Below are positions 11,163 to 22,862 of a stretch of 23,198 bases of DNA, one piece after another. Source of the DNA: a virus. The position numbers and the translations under genes are program-made. The stretch covers positions 1 through 23,198 of the IMG/VR virus record IMGVR_UViG_3300025711_000237, one strand, 5' to 3'. Below the pieces are notes generated by a model. It searched no databases. It was not told the DNA's origin and saw only the letters and a list, made by a program, of their open reading frames with translations. Each line of letters begins with the position of its first letter. Position 1 is the stretch's first letter.

Positions 11163-11200
11163 AATAATAGTCACTGAACTCATAAGGCGTGACTATTATT
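11163..11200 (+). terminator. Terminator-like hairpin after Q
   Basis: A perfect 12-bp inverted repeat (AATAATAGTCAC, 11163-11174, and GTGACTATTATT, 11189-11200) encloses a 14-base loop and is followed by TTAATTTT on the plus strand. It would end P-Q transcription. It overlaps the last codons of the converging rloB gene, so it may also shield that gene from read-through. Confidence 0.7.
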
Positions 11201-11879
11201 TTAATTTTGCCTGTTTGCATTTTATGGCTTGTAAATATGTTACGAGCTCATGGATCTGTGTTGACGGGTTCTTTATTCCAGTGCTTTCACTGGCATCCAT
11301 AGCTCTCTTGCTGTTAGCTTTTGCAAATTCAAGTTGTCCAAGCAGTGAAGTAAATACGTTATTTTTCCCTTTCTCGTAATCAGGCATGTATGCCTTTAAT
11401 TCAGACAGTAATTGTTTTCCTGAACTATTATCGGGAAGGTTTTCATATGCTTTTGTTGTATAGCAAAAATGAAGCAAAAGCCAGTATTCAAAGCAAGGGA
11501 AAGAGGCAATGGCTGAAAACACTCCCTTTGGTTTGATATTGTAAACACTATTTATAGCCTCATCGAAATCAGTATGTGCATCTCTATCAATGACACAAAA
11601 AACCTTATCAAATGCGGAAGATTCATTTTGCGATTTTTTAAATAAATCCTTCGCAAAATTAACTACAGTTTTAGGGCTAGAACCTGATTCACCGCTAATT
11701 TCAATGTTGGTCATACTTAATTCATAATGTTTCCTTATCTCTTTAAAGTAATTAGGCTCAGTTTTCTCTCCTTCACAAACTATCAAAATCCTCTCATATG
11801 GGGCTATTCTTGCCTTCACTCGCGCAAGGTCACCGATTTTTTTTGCTTTTCTTTTATGAAATAAGTTATCAGAGCCCAC
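11196..11879 (-). CDS. rloB: RloB-like TOPRIM-type protein
   Basis: A 227-aa protein of the RloB family, found next to AAA ATPases in restriction and defence loci and related in motif layout to TOPRIM nucleases. The motifs visible are ILIVCEGEKTEPNYF (glutamates at 36, 38 and 41), then VFCVIDRDAH (D98, D100; the DxD), then SFPCFEYWLLLHF. It starts at GTG 11879 directly after the RloA stop, with GGAGG eight bases upstream, so both come from one leftward transcript. By analogy with Old, Gabija and PARIS-type systems the ATPase would sense and RloB would cut or block nucleic acid, but RloB activity is inferred here. AT-rich relative to phage structural genes. Confidence 0.88.
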   Translation of the reverse strand: MGSDNLFHKRKAKKIGDLARVKARIAPYERILIVCEGEKTEPNYFKEIRKHYELSMTNIEISGESGSSPKTVVNFAKDLFKKSQNESSAFDKVFCVIDRDAHTDFDEAINSVYNIKPKGVFSAIASFPCFEYWLLLHFCYTTKAYENLPDNSSGKQLLSELKAYMPDYEKGKNNVFTSLLGQLEFAKANSKRAMDASESTGIKNPSTQIHELVTYLQAIKCKQAKLK

Positions 11880-13148
11880 TTATAAAACCTCCAAATCCCC
11901 AATGAATGGTAATGCGCCATAACGACCTGAAAGATAAGAGATTTCTAGGTTTTCTCTTCCTTTTTTAGGACTAAAGCTAGATAATGGATAAATGATGGTT
12001 GCTTTATCTTCGAGCTTATCGCAAAACCAAATTTGATCACGCCTAAAAATATCTTGAGTTAGAATGGATGTCTCATGAGTTGTGAAAATAAGTTGTGCAT
12101 TATTAGGGTTTGTAGTTCTGCTATGAAATAACTTCACCAAAAAATGAACTAATTTAGGGTGTAAGTTATCATGTAACTCATCAATAAGTAGAACATTTCC
12201 TTTTTTCAATGAATGCAACCATGGGCCGGAGAAAGAGAATAACTTCCTTGTTCCATCTGATTCATCCTCAAATTCAAATGGAATTAATTCACCATTAACA
12301 TTTTTGTGTTGAGTTTTAATATCAAATACATCTTTGTCTTTCATATTTTTTGAAATTAACTCCCTTACATGCTCGGGCATGCTCTCAGGAAGACTTGATG
12401 GGTCAAACTTTTCTTTTTTAACTAAAATATCATCAATATCAATGTCAGCAGCTTTTAGGAAATTCAAGATCTCTAGTTTTTTCTCACTAGTACACAATCC
12501 TGCGCTATAATCATCGCTCCAGCCTGAAACGTTTGTAAACCTTAATTTAAGCTGGAACCAATCGTAAATAGGTTTCAGCTGGGCACTGTTAAGTTGAATC
12601 GCCGTAGAAAGGAATAAAGCATCGTCTCTTGTTGCTTTCATCCAAATATTTTTATCGCCGGTAAGAGCATTACCTAGGTCCCATTTATAACTATTTGAAC
12701 TGACATCCCAAACACGACTAAACCAACGTTGTGTTCTTCCTTTCGGATAAGCCATAAGCCATTCGTCATGAATTTTAGTCTTAGTGGCACTAAAACCATA
12801 TTGATACCGAACGCCATCGGCAATAAATACGATTTCAAACTCACTTGGTTCGTCCAACGAAACTGGATCTAACTTAAAGGGTTCGATATCAAATCTATCG
12901 GCTTCCTGATGATTAGACGCAGAAAAGGCAACGATGTCACTCATAGTTGCCATTGCTCTTAAAAAGTTAGATTTTCCCGCTGCATTAGGCCCATAGATGG
13001 CTGCAGAGCTCAAAAGCTCAAGTTTATTTGGATACTCTAGAGAGAATGTGTTCGTCCCTTTAAGTTCATCTCCCTTAGACGCACTCATAGAGAAGCTTTG
13101 CGTGCCCTTGATAGACCGGTAATTTGTAACCGAAAATTCAATCAACAT
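11880..13148 (-). CDS. rloA: RloA-like AAA (ABC/SMC-type) ATPase
   Basis: A 422-aa ATPase of the AAA_15/RloA group. From ATG 13148: N-terminal MLIEFSVTNYRSIKGTQSFS, typical of Old/RecF-like ATPases; Walker A IYGPNAAGKS (about 51-60); a signature-like ESDGTRKLFSF (about 296-306); Walker B VLLIDELHDNLHP (about 319-331); H-loop FTTHET (about 355-360). A TTG 17 codons upstream is open but unnecessary. It is followed without gap by rloB. It lies between cos and Q, a stretch that is short and gene-free in P2. Likely the sensor half of an abortive-infection or exclusion module. Confidence 0.9.
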   Translation of the reverse strand: MLIEFSVTNYRSIKGTQSFSMSASKGDELKGTNTFSLEYPNKLELLSSAAIYGPNAAGKSNFLRAMATMSDIVAFSASNHQEADRFDIEPFKLDPVSLDEPSEFEIVFIADGVRYQYGFSATKTKIHDEWLMAYPKGRTQRWFSRVWDVSSNSYKWDLGNALTGDKNIWMKATRDDALFLSTAIQLNSAQLKPIYDWFQLKLRFTNVSGWSDDYSAGLCTSEKKLEILNFLKAADIDIDDILVKKEKFDPSSLPESMPEHVRELISKNMKDKDVFDIKTQHKNVNGELIPFEFEDESDGTRKLFSFSGPWLHSLKKGNVLLIDELHDNLHPKLVHFLVKLFHSRTTNPNNAQLIFTTHETSILTQDIFRRDQIWFCDKLEDKATIIYPLSSFSPKKGRENLEISYLSGRYGALPFIGDLEVL

Positions 13149-13178
13149 AATGAAATCACTCAAATTAGGAAACTTAAG

Positions 13179-13200
13179 CTTGTGCTTAAAATAGCACAAG
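13179..13200. repeat. 8-bp inverted repeat in the rloA leader
   Basis: CTTGTGCT (13179-13186) and AGCACAAG (13193-13200) pair perfectly around a six-base A/T loop, about 30 bases before the rloA ATG. It could be an operator or an RNA hairpin in the 5' leader. There is no T-run, so it is not an obvious terminator. Confidence 0.6.
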
Positions 13201-17059: not shown

Positions 17060-17569
17060 TTAGCTCAAGCCGATTGACGCACCCAGCCCGCTAATCACTT
17101 CGGCGGTGGATGACAACGCAGGGTTAGAATGAATACGAGCTTGTAACGATATTCCGGCCAATGTCAGGCAACGGATCGCAGAATTAATGCCAGCAGTGAA
17201 GGTGCTATGACGGCTTGCTGTCATGCGTTCACTTGATACGGCTTCGGCGGCTACGCTGCCTATCGCTGCAGTGGCTTTCATCACGTATACCGGCAGTTGC
17301 TCGGCAGTCATTTCGTTTACCGGCACTGACGGCAGGCAGTTAATCTGAGCCAGCATCCCATCTAACAACGTCGGGTCTTCGGTCAAATCGGTTAACAACA
17401 TCAAGTCTTCAATAGTGAGCTTGTGTGCCTGGTCAGGGTTTAACTTATTGCGCAGCACCTGTGCAGTGATGTCAGCTTTGGCCGCTAACTCTTTCAGATT
17501 GTGGCTCAAGGCAAATTTTCTGCAGGCTTCGTCGAAGTAGTGATGTGTGGAAACTTTATAATCAAACAT
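17060..17569 (-). CDS. cII: P2/186-type CII-like regulatory protein
   Basis: A 169-aa protein of the P2-like phage regulatory CII family: FDYKVSTHHYFDEACRKFAL, AAKADITAQVLRNKLNPDQA (helix-turn-helix), HKLTIEDLMLLTDLTEDPTL. In 186, CII promotes establishment of lysogeny by activating repressor transcription. Its start has GAGGAG about seven bases upstream. It is the second gene of the early leftward operon, after the Cox-like gene. Confidence 0.85.
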   Translation of the reverse strand: MFDYKVSTHHYFDEACRKFALSHNLKELAAKADITAQVLRNKLNPDQAHKLTIEDLMLLTDLTEDPTLLDGMLAQINCLPSVPVNEMTAEQLPVYVMKATAAIGSVAAEAVSSERMTASRHSTFTAGINSAIRCLTLAGISLQARIHSNPALSSTAEVISGLGASIGLS

Positions 17570-17599: not shown

Positions 17600-18001
17600 T
17601 TATGGTTTGATATATCGACATTTGACGGCCTGTTGGCGATTTTTCTCGCGCCAGGCGGCGACATTGATAAGAGCGATGCCGTGTTTTTCCATTACATCAG
17701 TGCGCTCTTTGCCGGTTTCCTTGCAGGTGATAGTGCGCTTTATTGTCGTTGTTGGAGTAGGGGCCAGGAGCACTACGCCATTAGCAATCCATTTCTCTAA
17801 GAGAGAATCACTGATGCGGTTTGCTGCGGCGAAATCTTTTTTAGACATCGTCGCTGAGGCATTCATAACAACGGCACGTTCTACGGCGCTACCTAGCGCT
17901 TGGCTCAGTGAAGGCATCAGAAGTGCTGTAATGCCTTCTATAAATTCTTTAGAGCCAAGTAGGTCAGATGCGAGCTGAGTATTTGCATTTTCAGTATGCA
18001 T
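17600..18001 (-). CDS. Cox/Apl-like early regulator
   Basis: First gene of the early operon, head to head with the repressor, the place of P2 cox and 186 apl (excision and repression of the lysogenic promoter). The 133-aa product is longer than P2 Cox (91 aa). The central part MSKKDFAAANRISDSLLEKW, with IANGVVLLAPT, looks like the Cox-type winged helix; the end reads INVAAWREKNRQQAVKCRYI. The first ~45 residues are an unassigned helical extension. AAGGAG lies ~10 bases before ATG 18001. Assignment rests on position and the helix pattern. Confidence 0.65.
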   Translation of the reverse strand: MHTENANTQLASDLLGSKEFIEGITALLMPSLSQALGSAVERAVVMNASATMSKKDFAAANRISDSLLEKWIANGVVLLAPTPTTTIKRTITCKETGKERTDVMEKHGIALINVAAWREKNRQQAVKCRYIKP

Positions 18002-18115
18002 AACGCAGTATCTCCTTTAGTCAGTTGTGTTCTATGGTGTTACATGTGGTGTGTAGTCACTTTAGATCGCTTTATTTGAACTGTAAATATCTTTTAGCGA
18101 TTTCTGGTAAATAAA
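18002..18115. promoter_or_regulatory. Divergent control region between Cox-like gene and CI
   Basis: On the minus strand TTTACA (18082-18087), a 17-base spacer and TAAAGT (18059-18064) make a credible early promoter for the cox-cII-A operon. An inverted ATCGCT (18066-18071) / AGCGAT (18096-18101) pair lies over and beside it and could be repressor half-sites. A rightward promoter for the repressor must also be here or in the adjoining gene but I could not pick one. Operator assignment is tentative. Confidence 0.5.
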
Positions 18116-18964
18116 ATGCGTCTAGAAAATGCTGTGGCTTCCGATGTGCTTGAGAGAATCCTTTCCGCTTATGGGTTTACAATGCAGAAAGAGCTAAGTG
18201 ACAGGCTTGGAATAGCGAAGAGTAATGTTGCGAGCTGGTTACAGCGTGGGCAGGTACCGGGCAATGTTCTAGTGCAATGTGCGCTTGATACTGGTACGGA
18301 TGTTAACTGGTTAGTAACCGGTGAACTTGAAAATGCAAGCCAGAACATTTCCCAGCCTGAAACTACAGGCAAAGCGCTCTACGATGAAATTATGTCCAAC
18401 GGCGGCAAAGCTGTTTTGCGACGGATCATGGATGCTTATGGATTCACACTGCAAAAAGAACTTTGCCAACTTCTTGGCATATCTTCCGGTACAGTTAGTA
18501 CATGGGTAAGAAGGGAGTATTTTCCTGGTGACGTTGTCGTAGCATGCGCTTTAGAAACGGGCGTATCTCTGCGTTGGATTGCTACAGGTAAAGGCGAAGC
18601 AAAAAAAACCACTGCAGCAAGCCTGGAACAGGCATCTATTACTCTTCCTAAAATGCGTTTGGAATCGGGCCGACTCAAAGCGATTGGTAGTTGGTCTGCT
18701 GATCCGTCGATGTTTAATGCAACGTCTGTAAGTGCAGCTTATATCGAAGGAATTAAATACTCATGGTTAGTCGATTTATCACAAACAGAAATTGGCAATG
18801 GCCGATGGATTGTGATTGTCGATGGTTCATATGATGTTTATGACGTTGTGAGATTACCTGCTGGAAAAATTAGACTTGTAAATGCAAGCATTGAATTTGA
18901 ATGCTCCTTAACAGATATAGATGTTTATGGAACTGTGCTTTTTACATTTGAAAAACACTTATAA
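18116..18964 (+). CDS. CI-type repressor with two tandem DNA-binding domains
   Basis: A 282-aa repressor that should hold the prophage silent. Residues 11-70 (VLERILSAYGFTMQKELSDR...) and 100-159 (VLRRIMDAYGFTLQKELCQL...) are two copies of the 186 CI/Bac_CI_repr helix-turn-helix domain, identical at roughly half of 60 positions by my hand alignment, joined by a 30-residue linker. The remaining ~120 residues resemble the C-terminal oligomerisation domain. 186 CI itself is ~190 aa with one such domain, so the extra length is the duplication. The start at 18116 has only a weak ribosome-binding site. Faces away from the early operon. Confidence 0.9.
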   Translation: MRLENAVASDVLERILSAYGFTMQKELSDRLGIAKSNVASWLQRGQVPGNVLVQCALDTGTDVNWLVTGELENASQNISQPETTGKALYDEIMSNGGKAVLRRIMDAYGFTLQKELCQLLGISSGTVSTWVRREYFPGDVVVACALETGVSLRWIATGKGEAKKTTAASLEQASITLPKMRLESGRLKAIGSWSADPSMFNATSVSAAYIEGIKYSWLVDLSQTEIGNGRWIVIVDGSYDVYDVVRLPAGKIRLVNASIEFECSLTDIDVYGTVLFTFEKHL

Positions 18965-19312
18965 ATGGAAGTTATGAAAAAACAAATTATTGCAATAACA
19001 TTATTGTTTATTAGTCCCTTATGCGCTGCCAAAGATAACTCTGAGGCGGTATTTAAAAAGGACTTTGGTGCTTCCTGGCCTCTCAAATTCGATAGTGCAG
19101 TGCTAACTTGCATACCTGGCGGTGCTGTCTTCGTTATGAATCCTAAGAATGACAAAGCTTATCCGGTAAATGGTACCGCATCTGCTTTCGTCAGATCGGG
19201 ACGGGTGAAAGGTGAAGACCTAAAATCGGTATGGCTAGATAACCCTGATTGGCCGGGTACGAAAATTGGGATTGGTGAGTTATTGGAACGCGGGCTTACG
19301 CTATGCGACTAA
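18965..19312 (+). CDS. Exported DUF2511 (YebY-like) protein
   Basis: A small secreted protein (115 aa) that follows the repressor stop directly. If it starts at the second ATG (18974) it is MKKQIIAITLLFISPLCAA, a standard signal peptide cleaved before KDNSEAV. The mature part, VLTCIPGGAVFVMNPKNDKA and GELLERGLTLCD, resembles DUF2511/YebY-type periplasmic proteins. Two Cys in the mature part may pair. Sitting in the lysogenic transcript with CI, it would be expressed in the lysogen, so it may be a conversion gene. Function is unknown to me. Confidence 0.82.
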   Translation: MEVMKKQIIAITLLFISPLCAAKDNSEAVFKKDFGASWPLKFDSAVLTCIPGGAVFVMNPKNDKAYPVNGTASAFVRSGRVKGEDLKSVWLDNPDWPGTKIGIGELLERGLTLCD

Positions 19313-19622: not shown

Positions 19623-19835
19623 TTACCCTGAATTGCTCCCAGAAAGAACCTCTGTAGCCATTTTACCGCCACTTTTGGCAGGCATTTTTGCACCCAAAAT
19701 CGATAACGGATTATTGGTTAAGGCATCTTCTAAATGGTCAGGGGCAAAGTGGGCATAGCGCATCGTTACGCGGATATCCGAGTGGCCGAGAATGCGTTGC
19801 AGCACGACAATAATGCCGCCGGACATCATAAAGTG
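19623..19835 (-). pseudogene. int: C-terminal stub of a P2/186-type tyrosine integrase
   Basis: The last 70 residues of an integrase: HFMMSGGIIVVLQRILGHSD then IRVTMRYAHFAPDHLEDALT. The H-loop and the nucleophile Tyr (MRYAHFAPDHL) are present, but everything before HFMM, including the first Arg of the catalytic set, is absent; upstream bases read as unrelated sequence. The orientation is opposite to that of a P2 integrase, which runs the same way as the repressor. So this is either a remnant of a second element or an inverted leftover. Confidence 0.85.
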
Positions 19836-19837
19836 GC

Positions 19838-20007
19838 GGTTTTTTATACCTAAGCTCAACGCATTCCCAATCCTCTTCATCTGGCAGAGACTTTGGAATG
19901 CGTGACCAAAGTTGCTCAGCTTCCCCTGCTTGCTCACTCTGCGGTGCCGTTTGGCAAAGAATAAACGTCCAATCCTGAGGCGTAACGCCACCCTTTGCTG
20001 ATGACAC
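19838..20007 (-). pseudogene. Unrecognised coding fragment joined to the integrase stub
   Basis: In a different frame from the integrase stub, the sequence reads GGVTPQDWTFILCQTAPQSE, then SRIPKSLPDEEDWECVELRY. The composition looks like real protein, and it breaks off where the integrase homology begins, so a deletion seems to have fused two genes. I do not recognise it. It could be chance. Confidence 0.3.
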
Positions 20008-20124
20008 CTAAGGACCATAAAGATTGGGTAAATTTCGAGACCGCTCTTAAGTCGTGGGCATTCACCATCGGCGAGTTAACCACCGGTTGGCTGCCGCTGT
20101 GTCAGGGATATATCGGTTCAAATC

Positions 20125-20843: not shown

Positions 20844-21165
20844 GCTTAAAAATCTCTCTGAAGACAGAGCGCTAATCGACTCTATGGTTACCTCCGAAAA
20901 TAAAACCGTTTTGATATAATCTGCACGCTATCTAAATCTTTTAACATTCTATTTAAAGCTATCAGAAATTCTCATTTCTAACCATCGAAAGAGCCGCTTT
21001 GACGTATGTCTCATCTGGTTTAAATCTCGACATATACGCAGGCAGATCACTAGGATTTTTTTCCGTTGATCGTTGCTATAAACGCTTGACCTTGACCCAA
21101 AATCCTGCTCCATTCAGAAACAGAATTCCGGCATGATATTGACTCCCCTGAACGGAGGGGGGCAG

Positions 21166-21441
21166 ATGAAAAAGTCACGATTCACCGAAGAGCAGATTGT
21201 CTTTGCTCTCAAGCATGCCGAGCTGGGTATCTCCGATGCCACGTTTTACACCTGGCGCAAGAAATACGGCGGAATTTCTCCTTCTGAACTCAAACATATG
21301 CGGCAGCTGGAAGAGGAAAATCTGCGGCTGAAGAGGCTGGTTGCTGACCTCAGCCTCGACAAGGCGATGCTGCAGGACGTGCTGGCAAAAAAGAACTGCC
21401 GATGGCAGCGCACTGCGCCTGCGTATCCGTGGGATCACTGA
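21166..21441 (+). pseudogene. IS3-family OrfA, internally deleted
   Basis: From ATG 21166 (GGAGGGGGG just upstream) the frame reads MKKSRFTEEQIVFALKHAEL then GISDATFYTWRKKYGG and a leucine-zipper-like LEEENLRLKRLVADLSLD, as in OrfA proteins of this group. About a dozen residues of the helix-turn-helix are missing between AEL and GISD. After KK the frame runs into OrfB sequence and stops at 21441. Confidence 0.82.
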
Positions 21442-21734
21442 AATGCGAATTCTGCTCTGAATTTACAGGAAAAATGCTGGACAGGTGGACGTATGAAAGA
21501 GGGGTAAGGATCGACTTCTCACGCCCAGGAACGCCGACGGACAATGCGACGGTGGAGTCCTTCAACGGCAGGTTAAGGCAGAAATGCCTGAACGATAGTG
21601 GGTTTATGTCTCTGGAGGATGCCCTCCGAATTTGCCGGTTTCCAGAATATGCAGCCAGAATGAAGCCGGTTATTCCTGAATATGGCTGGATCACATACGG
21701 GGAGCGGGTCAACAAGTTTCACATCTCATCTTAG
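21401..21734 (+). pseudogene. IS3-family OrfB (DDE transposase) fragments
   Basis: Two pieces. From 21401 one frame gives DGSALRLRIRGITEMR, an internal OrfB motif, then stops at 21460. From about 21445 another frame gives CSEFTGKMLDRWTYERGVRI, FSRPGTPTDNATVESFNGRL and MSLEDALR, the third quarter of a DDE domain with the Glu of VESFNG. The preceding DNGSEF is changed to EFCSEF, losing the Asp. The end after EDALR does not match the family. Confidence 0.82.
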
Positions 21735-22457: not shown

Positions 22458-22862
22458 ATGCAGCCGTACCAGGAATCACTATTTCCCGTCTCGATTAAGG
22501 GGATTGTGCAGATTAGCGACAAGATTCTGCTATTAAAAAACGAGCGGGAAGAGTGGGAGTTGCCGGGGGGAAAGCTCGAGAAAGGGGAAACGCCTGAAGA
22601 ATGTCTTATCCGTGAAATGTATGAGGAGACGCAGATAGCGTCGTCGGTGCAGGGCATTATCGACGCCTGGCTTTACCGGATTTGTGCTAAAGAAATATTG
22701 ATTGTGACCTATCTCATGAAGGTTGAACCGGCCTCAAGCCAAACGATAAAAGTCAGCCATGAGCATAAAGAAATAGGGATGTTTAGTCTGAATGAGATTG
22801 CAGAGCTCAATATGCCAATGGGGTACAAGACGTCGATAGGGCGAGTCATTAACCCAGTTTGA
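22458..22862 (+). CDS. Nudix hydrolase
   Basis: A 134-aa single-domain Nudix hydrolase. The Nudix box spans about residues 38-60: GKLEKGETPEECLIREMYEE followed by TQI, giving G-x5-E-x7-R-E-x-x-E-E with Gln where Gly is usual at the last-but-one position. WELPGG before it is the typical lead-in. Substrate cannot be told from sequence; the family hydrolyses nucleoside diphosphate-linked compounds. GGAG lies about six bases before ATG 22458. It stands alone, with a hairpin beyond its stop. Confidence 0.92.
   Translation: MQPYQESLFPVSIKGIVQISDKILLLKNEREEWELPGGKLEKGETPEECLIREMYEETQIASSVQGIIDAWLYRICAKEILIVTYLMKVEPASSQTIKVSHEHKEIGMFSLNEIAELNMPMGYKTSIGRVINPV

Follow-up and report, generated by a model that had tools for sequence, protein, structure and literature searches.

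A tandem-HTH CI repressor in a PSP3-type prophage, with one variable and one nearly invariant head

Introduction

How temperate phages gain new immunity specificities and yet keep repression throughout is an old question. A related system by protein fold is the CI repressor of phage 186, in which the C-terminal domain (CTD) mediates oligomerisation and the dimers assemble into a wheel of seven dimers. The single HTH of 186 CI reads two distinct sequences, according to the title of Shearwin et al. 2002 (cited in PMC8565304). Two covalently linked DNA-binding heads are placed on one site by the immunity repressor of mycobacteriophage TipsytheTRex, which is a monomer on an asymmetric site and has a stoperator domain as its second head; its authors tie the dual domains to the evolution of immunity specificities (PMC9283540).

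The subject of this study is a CI repressor with two HTHs, encoded in a 23,198-nucleotide stretch of viral DNA (IMG/VR record IMGVR_UViG_3300025711_000237, positions 1 to 23,198), hereafter called the window. The tandem architecture is already present in the public PSP3 record, and no paper describing it in PSP3-type CI was found in the open-licence literature; what is new here is that the two heads evolve differently and that the operator and the N-terminal head behave as a cassette.

Domain architecture and genomic context

The repressor gene, its domains and its neighbours are the following:

18116..18964, plus strand: cI, tandem-HTH immunity repressor of 282 amino acids (open reading frame; two PF07022 and one PF16452 matches; PSP3 CI homology)
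18146..18325, plus strand: N-terminal HTH (N-HTH or N-head), residues 11-70, the variable head (PF07022; five-helix domain in the AF2 model; operator covariation)
18233..18235, plus strand: Ser40 codon, in the N recognition helix (model helix 35-44; prediction of the -14 base)
18371..18397, plus strand: conserved inter-domain helix, residues 86-94, GKALYDEIM region (AF2 secondary structure; column conservation)
18413..18592, plus strand: second HTH (C-HTH or C-head), residues 100-159, the nearly invariant head (PF07022; low pN/pS; helix SSGTxSTWxRR)
18638..18952, plus strand: C-terminal oligomerisation domain, residues 175-279 (PF16452; Foldseek match to the 186 CI CTD)
18965-19312, plus strand: DUF2511 gene, downstream of cI
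18002-18115: intergenic region between the apl/cox-position gene and cI
17600..18001, minus strand: first gene of the lytic operon, 133 amino acids, phrog_3554, in the apl/cox position (synteny with PSP3 gp30 and 186 apl)
17060..17569, minus strand: CII-like regulator, PF06892

Pfam matched PF07022 twice in the 282-residue protein (E 5.3e-51) and PF16452 once (residues 178-274, E 3.3e-15), and Foldseek superimposed its CTD on that of 186 CI in 2fkd (TMt 0.89, rmsd 1.6). By fold and family, the window CI is a 186-type CI repressor (Phage_CI_repr plus Phage_CI_C). Its gene also diverges, as in the 186 type, from the apl/cox-position gene and cII, over an opposing minus-strand lytic promoter, and the order of the CII-like gene, the apl/cox-position gene, cI and the DUF2511 gene matches that of PSP3. 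The 186 type has a single HTH per chain and the window CI has two, so that the latter is a variant and not a canonical 186-type CI.

An ungapped alignment at an offset of 89 pairs residues 11-70 with residues 100-159, 31 of 60 positions being identical, and the local alignment score of 179 compares with a mean of 24 (sd 4.5, maximum 49) over 2000 shuffles. Synonymous sites are saturated between the two copies (pS 0.82, pN 0.35), which indicates an old duplication that has been maintained as protein and does not stem from an assembly error. An assembly or reading error is ruled out by this saturation together with the presence of the tandem architecture in independent records, namely PSP3 CI (AAN08403.1), 80 viral contigs and 13 sequenced bacterial genomes. 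A preliminary description of this DNA, made from the letters alone, had seen in these segments paralogous HTH copies about half identical, both of one family, whose recognition helices had diverged after an old duplication; all of this is borne out, since PF07022 is found again in the second domain, the identity lies far above shuffles and the helices do differ between the copies. It was equally right in giving 186 CI a single HTH. The AF2 model supports the individual domains (mean pLDDT 81), with low-confidence stretches at residues 73-81, the linker before helix 86-94, and at 163-172, and it gave no usable arrangement of the two heads (pTM 0.40).

Elsewhere in the window, positions 19623-20018 (minus strand) contain a P2-type integrase remnant reduced to the last ~55 residues (PSP3 Int residues 293-347, 65% identical), and its orientation is the reverse of that of PSP3 int; the inverted remnant is also found in the close relatives L002 and L003. 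An IS3-like insertion remnant is located at 21133-21734 (plus strand), with a transposase HTH (PF01527) followed by an rve_3 fragment. An AbiL-like pair at 11196-13199 (minus strand), made up of an AbiLi/AAA_21 ATPase (11880-13199) and AbiLii/RloB (11196-11879), is likely anti-phage defence cargo of the prophage, and a NUDIX protein at 22458-22862 (plus strand) also matches the PADLOC candidate defence model PDC-S07.

Occurrence and origins of the tandem architecture

The tandem-HTH architecture is present in PSP3 CI and in more than 90 Enterobacterales prophages, so the window's tandem CI is not unique. The relatives were fetched with the window CI as query and comprise 80 viral contigs and 15 genome loci, two of which do not carry both HTHs: the single-HTH locus L095, from Chimaeribacter, and the distant L096. 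A search of 295 genomes of the order gave eight ORFs with two PF07022 matches, in seven genomes. The closest named relatives of the window CI are the repressors of Salmonella phages SI22 and SW9 (60% identity), followed by those of SEN1 and PSP3 (58-59%).

In a tree of single HTH domains, all PSP3-type N copies fall into one clade (100/100), and the N and C copies together are split from other CI HTHs (97/90), with the HTHs of L095 and of a Yersinia phage inside the group. As judged from this tree, the N1 and C1 HTHs of the PSP3-type CI derive from one shared duplication. The HTHs of the tandem CIs of Klebsiella phages 4LV2017 and ST437-OXA245phi4.2 are found among Fels-2-like single HTHs, the N copy next to Kc166 and the C copy near KP12, and a duplication common to these proteins and the PSP3 type is ruled out by the domain trees. 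A third tandem CI, L121, groups with a Salinivibrio phage type (100/99); in L122, which is a fourth candidate, the first HTH is partial and unplaceable in the tree. Because the Klebsiella and L121 HTHs occupy separate tree positions, tandem-HTH CIs seem to have at least three origins, with few alignment columns and uncertain deep forks behind this count.

Two departures from the tandem plan were seen among the relatives. The single HTH of L095 (2980-3570) groups with the C copies, which may be either the ancestral state or the outcome of an N-head loss. In two Serratia inhibens loci (L076:3001-3693 and L090:3001-3693), cI retains both HTHs and its ORF stops early in the CTD, at 230 amino acids, possibly a natural loss of the oligomerisation domain.

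One variable and one nearly fixed head

In 80 CI sequences, the recognition helix of the C-head, S-S/T-G/A-T-x-S-T-W-x-R-R, hardly changes, at a mean column entropy of 0.50 bits, whereas that of the N-head varies, at 1.18 bits. Among paired positions of the two HTHs, 35 are more variable in the N copy and 14 in the C copy. Median pN/pS is 0.33 for the N-HTH, 0.15 for the C-HTH and 0.56 for the CTD, and pS is near 0.8 in each of them, which shows that the C-head is kept by purifying selection and not by recent homogenisation. Recognition helices are also fairly conserved within the Fels-2-type and other single-HTH CI groups, and the unusual partner may therefore be the variable N-head and not the fixed C-head. 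Taken together, these patterns suggest a first head that is exchangeable and phage-specific and a second one that is nearly fixed. The CTD is the fastest-changing domain of CI by the same measure, perhaps through antirepressor pressure.

The candidate operator and its probable reading by the first head

The sites proposed in the intergenic region are listed below, the operator and its half-sites being given irrespective of strand:

18066..18101: candidate 36-bp operator, ATCGCTTTATTTGAACTG to the left and TAAATATCTTTTAGCGAT to the right of the dyad at 18083/18084 (conserved centre; outer arms; residue-40 covariation)
18066..18071: left outer half-site ATCGCT, in which position -14 is C18070
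18096..18101: right outer half-site AGCGAT, in which position +14 is G18097
18059..18087, minus strand: candidate lytic promoter TTTACA-17-TAAAGT, overlapped by the operator (promoter scan; hexamers conserved in relatives)

The promoter was called exactly beneath the candidate 36-bp dyad, and, since promoter-like sites in the scan were no more numerous than in shuffles, its support lies in conservation and position and not in the scan count. When 25 divergent operators are averaged, dyad symmetry peaks at the TG-TA step inside TGTAAA (z 3.4 against other centres), a symmetry that none of 2000 permutations of the right half reached. In the window itself, the outer arms are 24 bp apart and the dyad is imperfect (9 of 18 matches, shuffle P about 0.02). 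At this centre, operators of the window's N-head clade are strongly symmetric and those of several other N-head classes show no symmetry; a dyad universal to all N-head classes was not found, the PSN, PAAN and AKHS types misfitting the TG-TA centre, and the geometry is thus supported mainly for the window's clade. In the NNISGW class (L163, L168, L216 and L221), outer arms resembling ATCACAAA and TTTGTGAT lie about 35 bp apart, suggesting that the CIs of this class may have long operators too. Between the -10 box and the outer half-site, a GATC at 18065-18068 is kept in most relatives and is not needed by the promoter boxes; a Dam-methylation role or a contact with the C-head is possible.

Operator sequence follows the first head of the repressor and hardly the second. 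In pairwise comparisons across 44 loci, the correlation of operator identity with that of the N-HTH was r 0.70 (partial 0.72 given C-HTH and CTD, 0/500 permutations); for the C-HTH it was 0.15 (partial 0.17), and the partial value for the CTD was 0.13. The N recognition helix made a further contribution beyond that of the remaining N-domain (partial 0.32, 0/500 permutations). The window's N-head clade comprises the CIs with S36/N37. For every one of its 25 distinct operators, the bases at -14 and at +14 can be predicted from residue 40: S40 goes with C/G and G40 with G/C at -14/+14. Residue 40 is the only one of the 282 residues that is perfect for the -14 base in these operators. The closest pair, L065 and L088, has N-HTHs that are 97% identical and differ only at residues 40 and 45, and the bases are swapped. 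The rule was then confronted with 12 new distinct operators, from contigs fetched after it had been set. Position -14 fits residue 40 in 12 of 12, and +14 in 9 of 12, where S40 is accompanied by G in 7/7 and G40 by C in 2/5 and by A in 3/5, but never by G.

In CI/Cro-type HTHs, bases are classically contacted by positions 1, 2 and 6 of the recognition helix; in the modelled helix 35-44, residue 40 occupies position 6. A global residue-operator scan likewise ranked residues 36 and 40 highest among those of the HTH. On an N-domain tree built without codon 40, bootstraps of the S40 label give four to six S/G changes, of which the well-supported branches force only one, and residue 40 has probably changed repeatedly. 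The rule applies to the left and to the right of the dyad, so that the outer half-sites, 14 bp from it, are most likely read by two N-heads.

Pairs of related loci point in the same direction. On the cox side, up to the operator, the DNA of L041 matches that of L060 at 93-100%, and from residue ~118 onwards at about 97%; from the operator through the N-HTH, identity falls to 40-60%, which we read as a natural head swap. Conversely, L001 and L071 are alike in operator (93%) and N-HTH and different in their flanks. Between L001 and L005, identity is about 95% up to the end of the N-HTH and still 80-90% into the C-HTH, but their CTDs are very different, the CTD exchange starting at about codon 137. 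With swaps on the N side and in the CTD on either side of it, the C-head stands as a conserved joint between two exchangeable parts. By this pattern, operator and N-head behave as a cassette traded between phages with the same C-head and CTD.

A model of repression and its alternatives

These data are probably best explained by a PSP3-type (P2/186-like) prophage immunity repressor of which two chains sit on one 36-bp dyad, with the N-heads outside and the C-heads inside. The two chains would pair via their 186-type CTDs, one on each side of the dyad, and, as the dyad overlies both the -35 box of the lytic promoter and its -35/-10 spacer, their occupancy would shut the promoter off. As covariation indicates, the phage-specific half-site read by the N-HTH of each chain would be the outer one, about 14 bp away from the dyad; the nearly invariant second HTH would most likely lie further in, close to the dyad, on an inner half-site that overlaps the conserved TGTAAA. 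This element coincides with the -35 box and would hence be conserved regardless of any contact with the C-HTH. The outer N-sites, 28 bp apart, are too wide for a normal HTH pair, given that the 186 FL and FR sites total 17 bp, and the gap between them offers space for two more heads. New immunity specificities could then arise through swaps of the operator and N-HTH cassette or through changes in the recognition helix, such as those at position 40, with the second HTH retained throughout. Such exchange would mean that the duplication separates a variable specificity head from a conserved one.

The preliminary description had offered other uses for two heads. It had proposed that one chain could bind both half-sites; the N-head signature instead recurs to the left and right of a single dyad, an arrangement that suggests two chains with one side each. 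Nor does simultaneous binding of two operators find support, because a scan of the window and of the ~6-kb loci, which would miss diverged or shorter sites, gave no further copy of the 36-bp operator that exceeded shuffle level. As to its suggestion that the two recognition helices may read different sites, the helices have indeed diverged, and operator sequence is tracked by the N copy and not by the C copy.

It is improbable that the association of N-HTH and operator reflects linkage only, neighbouring DNA being co-inherited without recognition. Although the cI residues nearest to the operator (2, 3, 5 and 6) correlate strongly too, partly outranking residue 40 in the global scan, and residue 3 predicts the -14 base in 96% of cases, residue 40, about 150 bp from the dyad, beats every operator-nearer codon for -14 within the clade. 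The bases left and right of the dyad change in concert, the contribution of the recognition helix goes beyond that of the rest of the N-domain, and the rule held in new loci. What the second HTH does is a separate matter, and here an arrangement in which the N-HTH alone recognises the operator and the C-HTH reads no specific DNA, as a structural joint, an oligomerisation element or a non-specific clamp, is unlikely but has to be reckoned with. It would account for the near lack of association between C-HTH and operator sequence, and no C-HTH motif separable from the promoter boxes was found among the relatives. Against it stand the C recognition helix at residues 124-132, which is among the most conserved parts of CI, with a pN/pS of 0.14 despite saturated synonymous sites, the retention of a C-type helix as the sole DNA reader of L095, and the space left for two further heads between the outer N-sites. 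The upstream regions of the single-HTH relatives L095 and L114 share no clear motif that could be a C-head half-site.

Alternatively, the heads could read separate operators, bridging or looping the DNA, with the N-head on the lytic promoter and the C-head on, for example, flanking or late-control sites. 186 CI binds the flanking sites FL and FR and pB besides pR, and a common distant target would fit the invariance of the C-head; the single occurrence of the 36-bp operator above shuffle level leaves this with a small chance, a C-head-only site being one that would escape the scan. A monomeric chain with its two HTHs on two unlike half-sites, as in TipsytheTRex, is very improbable. The two CI heads do differ in sequence and a two-domain phage repressor on an asymmetric site provides a precedent (PMC9283540), but the base that covaries with the N-head is symmetric across the dyad and the window CI carries a CTD of the 186 fold.

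Beyond this locus, the two-chain, four-head reading can be extended to a recurrent tandem-CI design with at least three origins, in which an exchangeable head with a residue-40-to-±14 code is joined to a fixed one and four heads cover 36 bp; taken as a whole, the extension is tentative, with somewhat less than an even chance of holding. If true, a new immunity group would require the swap of one ~75-residue domain and ~50 bp of DNA, and a duplicated head free to vary beside a constant sister would offer a concrete route to new immunity. The S40/G40 pairs and their matching operators constitute natural near-isogenic material, and the tandem CIs offer orthogonal repressor-operator pairs on one common scaffold.

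Relation to known repressors

The nearest relatives are the CIs of PSP3 (AAN08403.1), SEN1, SW9 and SI22 (Eganvirus and others), which share with the window CI the tandem PF07022 plus PF16452 architecture at 58-60% identity. PSP3 and its relatives also have cI, the DUF2511-position gene, the divergent cox/apl-position gene and cII in common with the window; they differ from it in their N-head class, AKHSVSG, and in their operator, and in place of int the window has the inverted integrase remnant. 186 CI (PF07022 plus PF16452; PDB 2fjr and 2fkd) has the same CTD fold and HTH family and is likewise placed opposite apl/cII, over the lytic promoter, but it has one HTH instead of two. Its sites also differ: FL and FR, annotated as 17 bp, three sites at pR and two at pB, as opposed to one 36-bp dyad in the window; 17 bp is too short for heads 28 bp apart.

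The CIs of Klebsiella 4LV2017 and ST437-OXA245phi4.2 resemble the window CI in having two PF07022 and one PF16452 domains, whereas their HTHs are of Fels-2-like affinity and of independent origin. Finally, in contrast to the TipsytheTRex repressor, the second head of the window CI is PF07022 again and its site is a dyad, two features that set it apart from the mycobacteriophage two-domain monomeric type; by analogy, the window CI may nonetheless work partly like that repressor.
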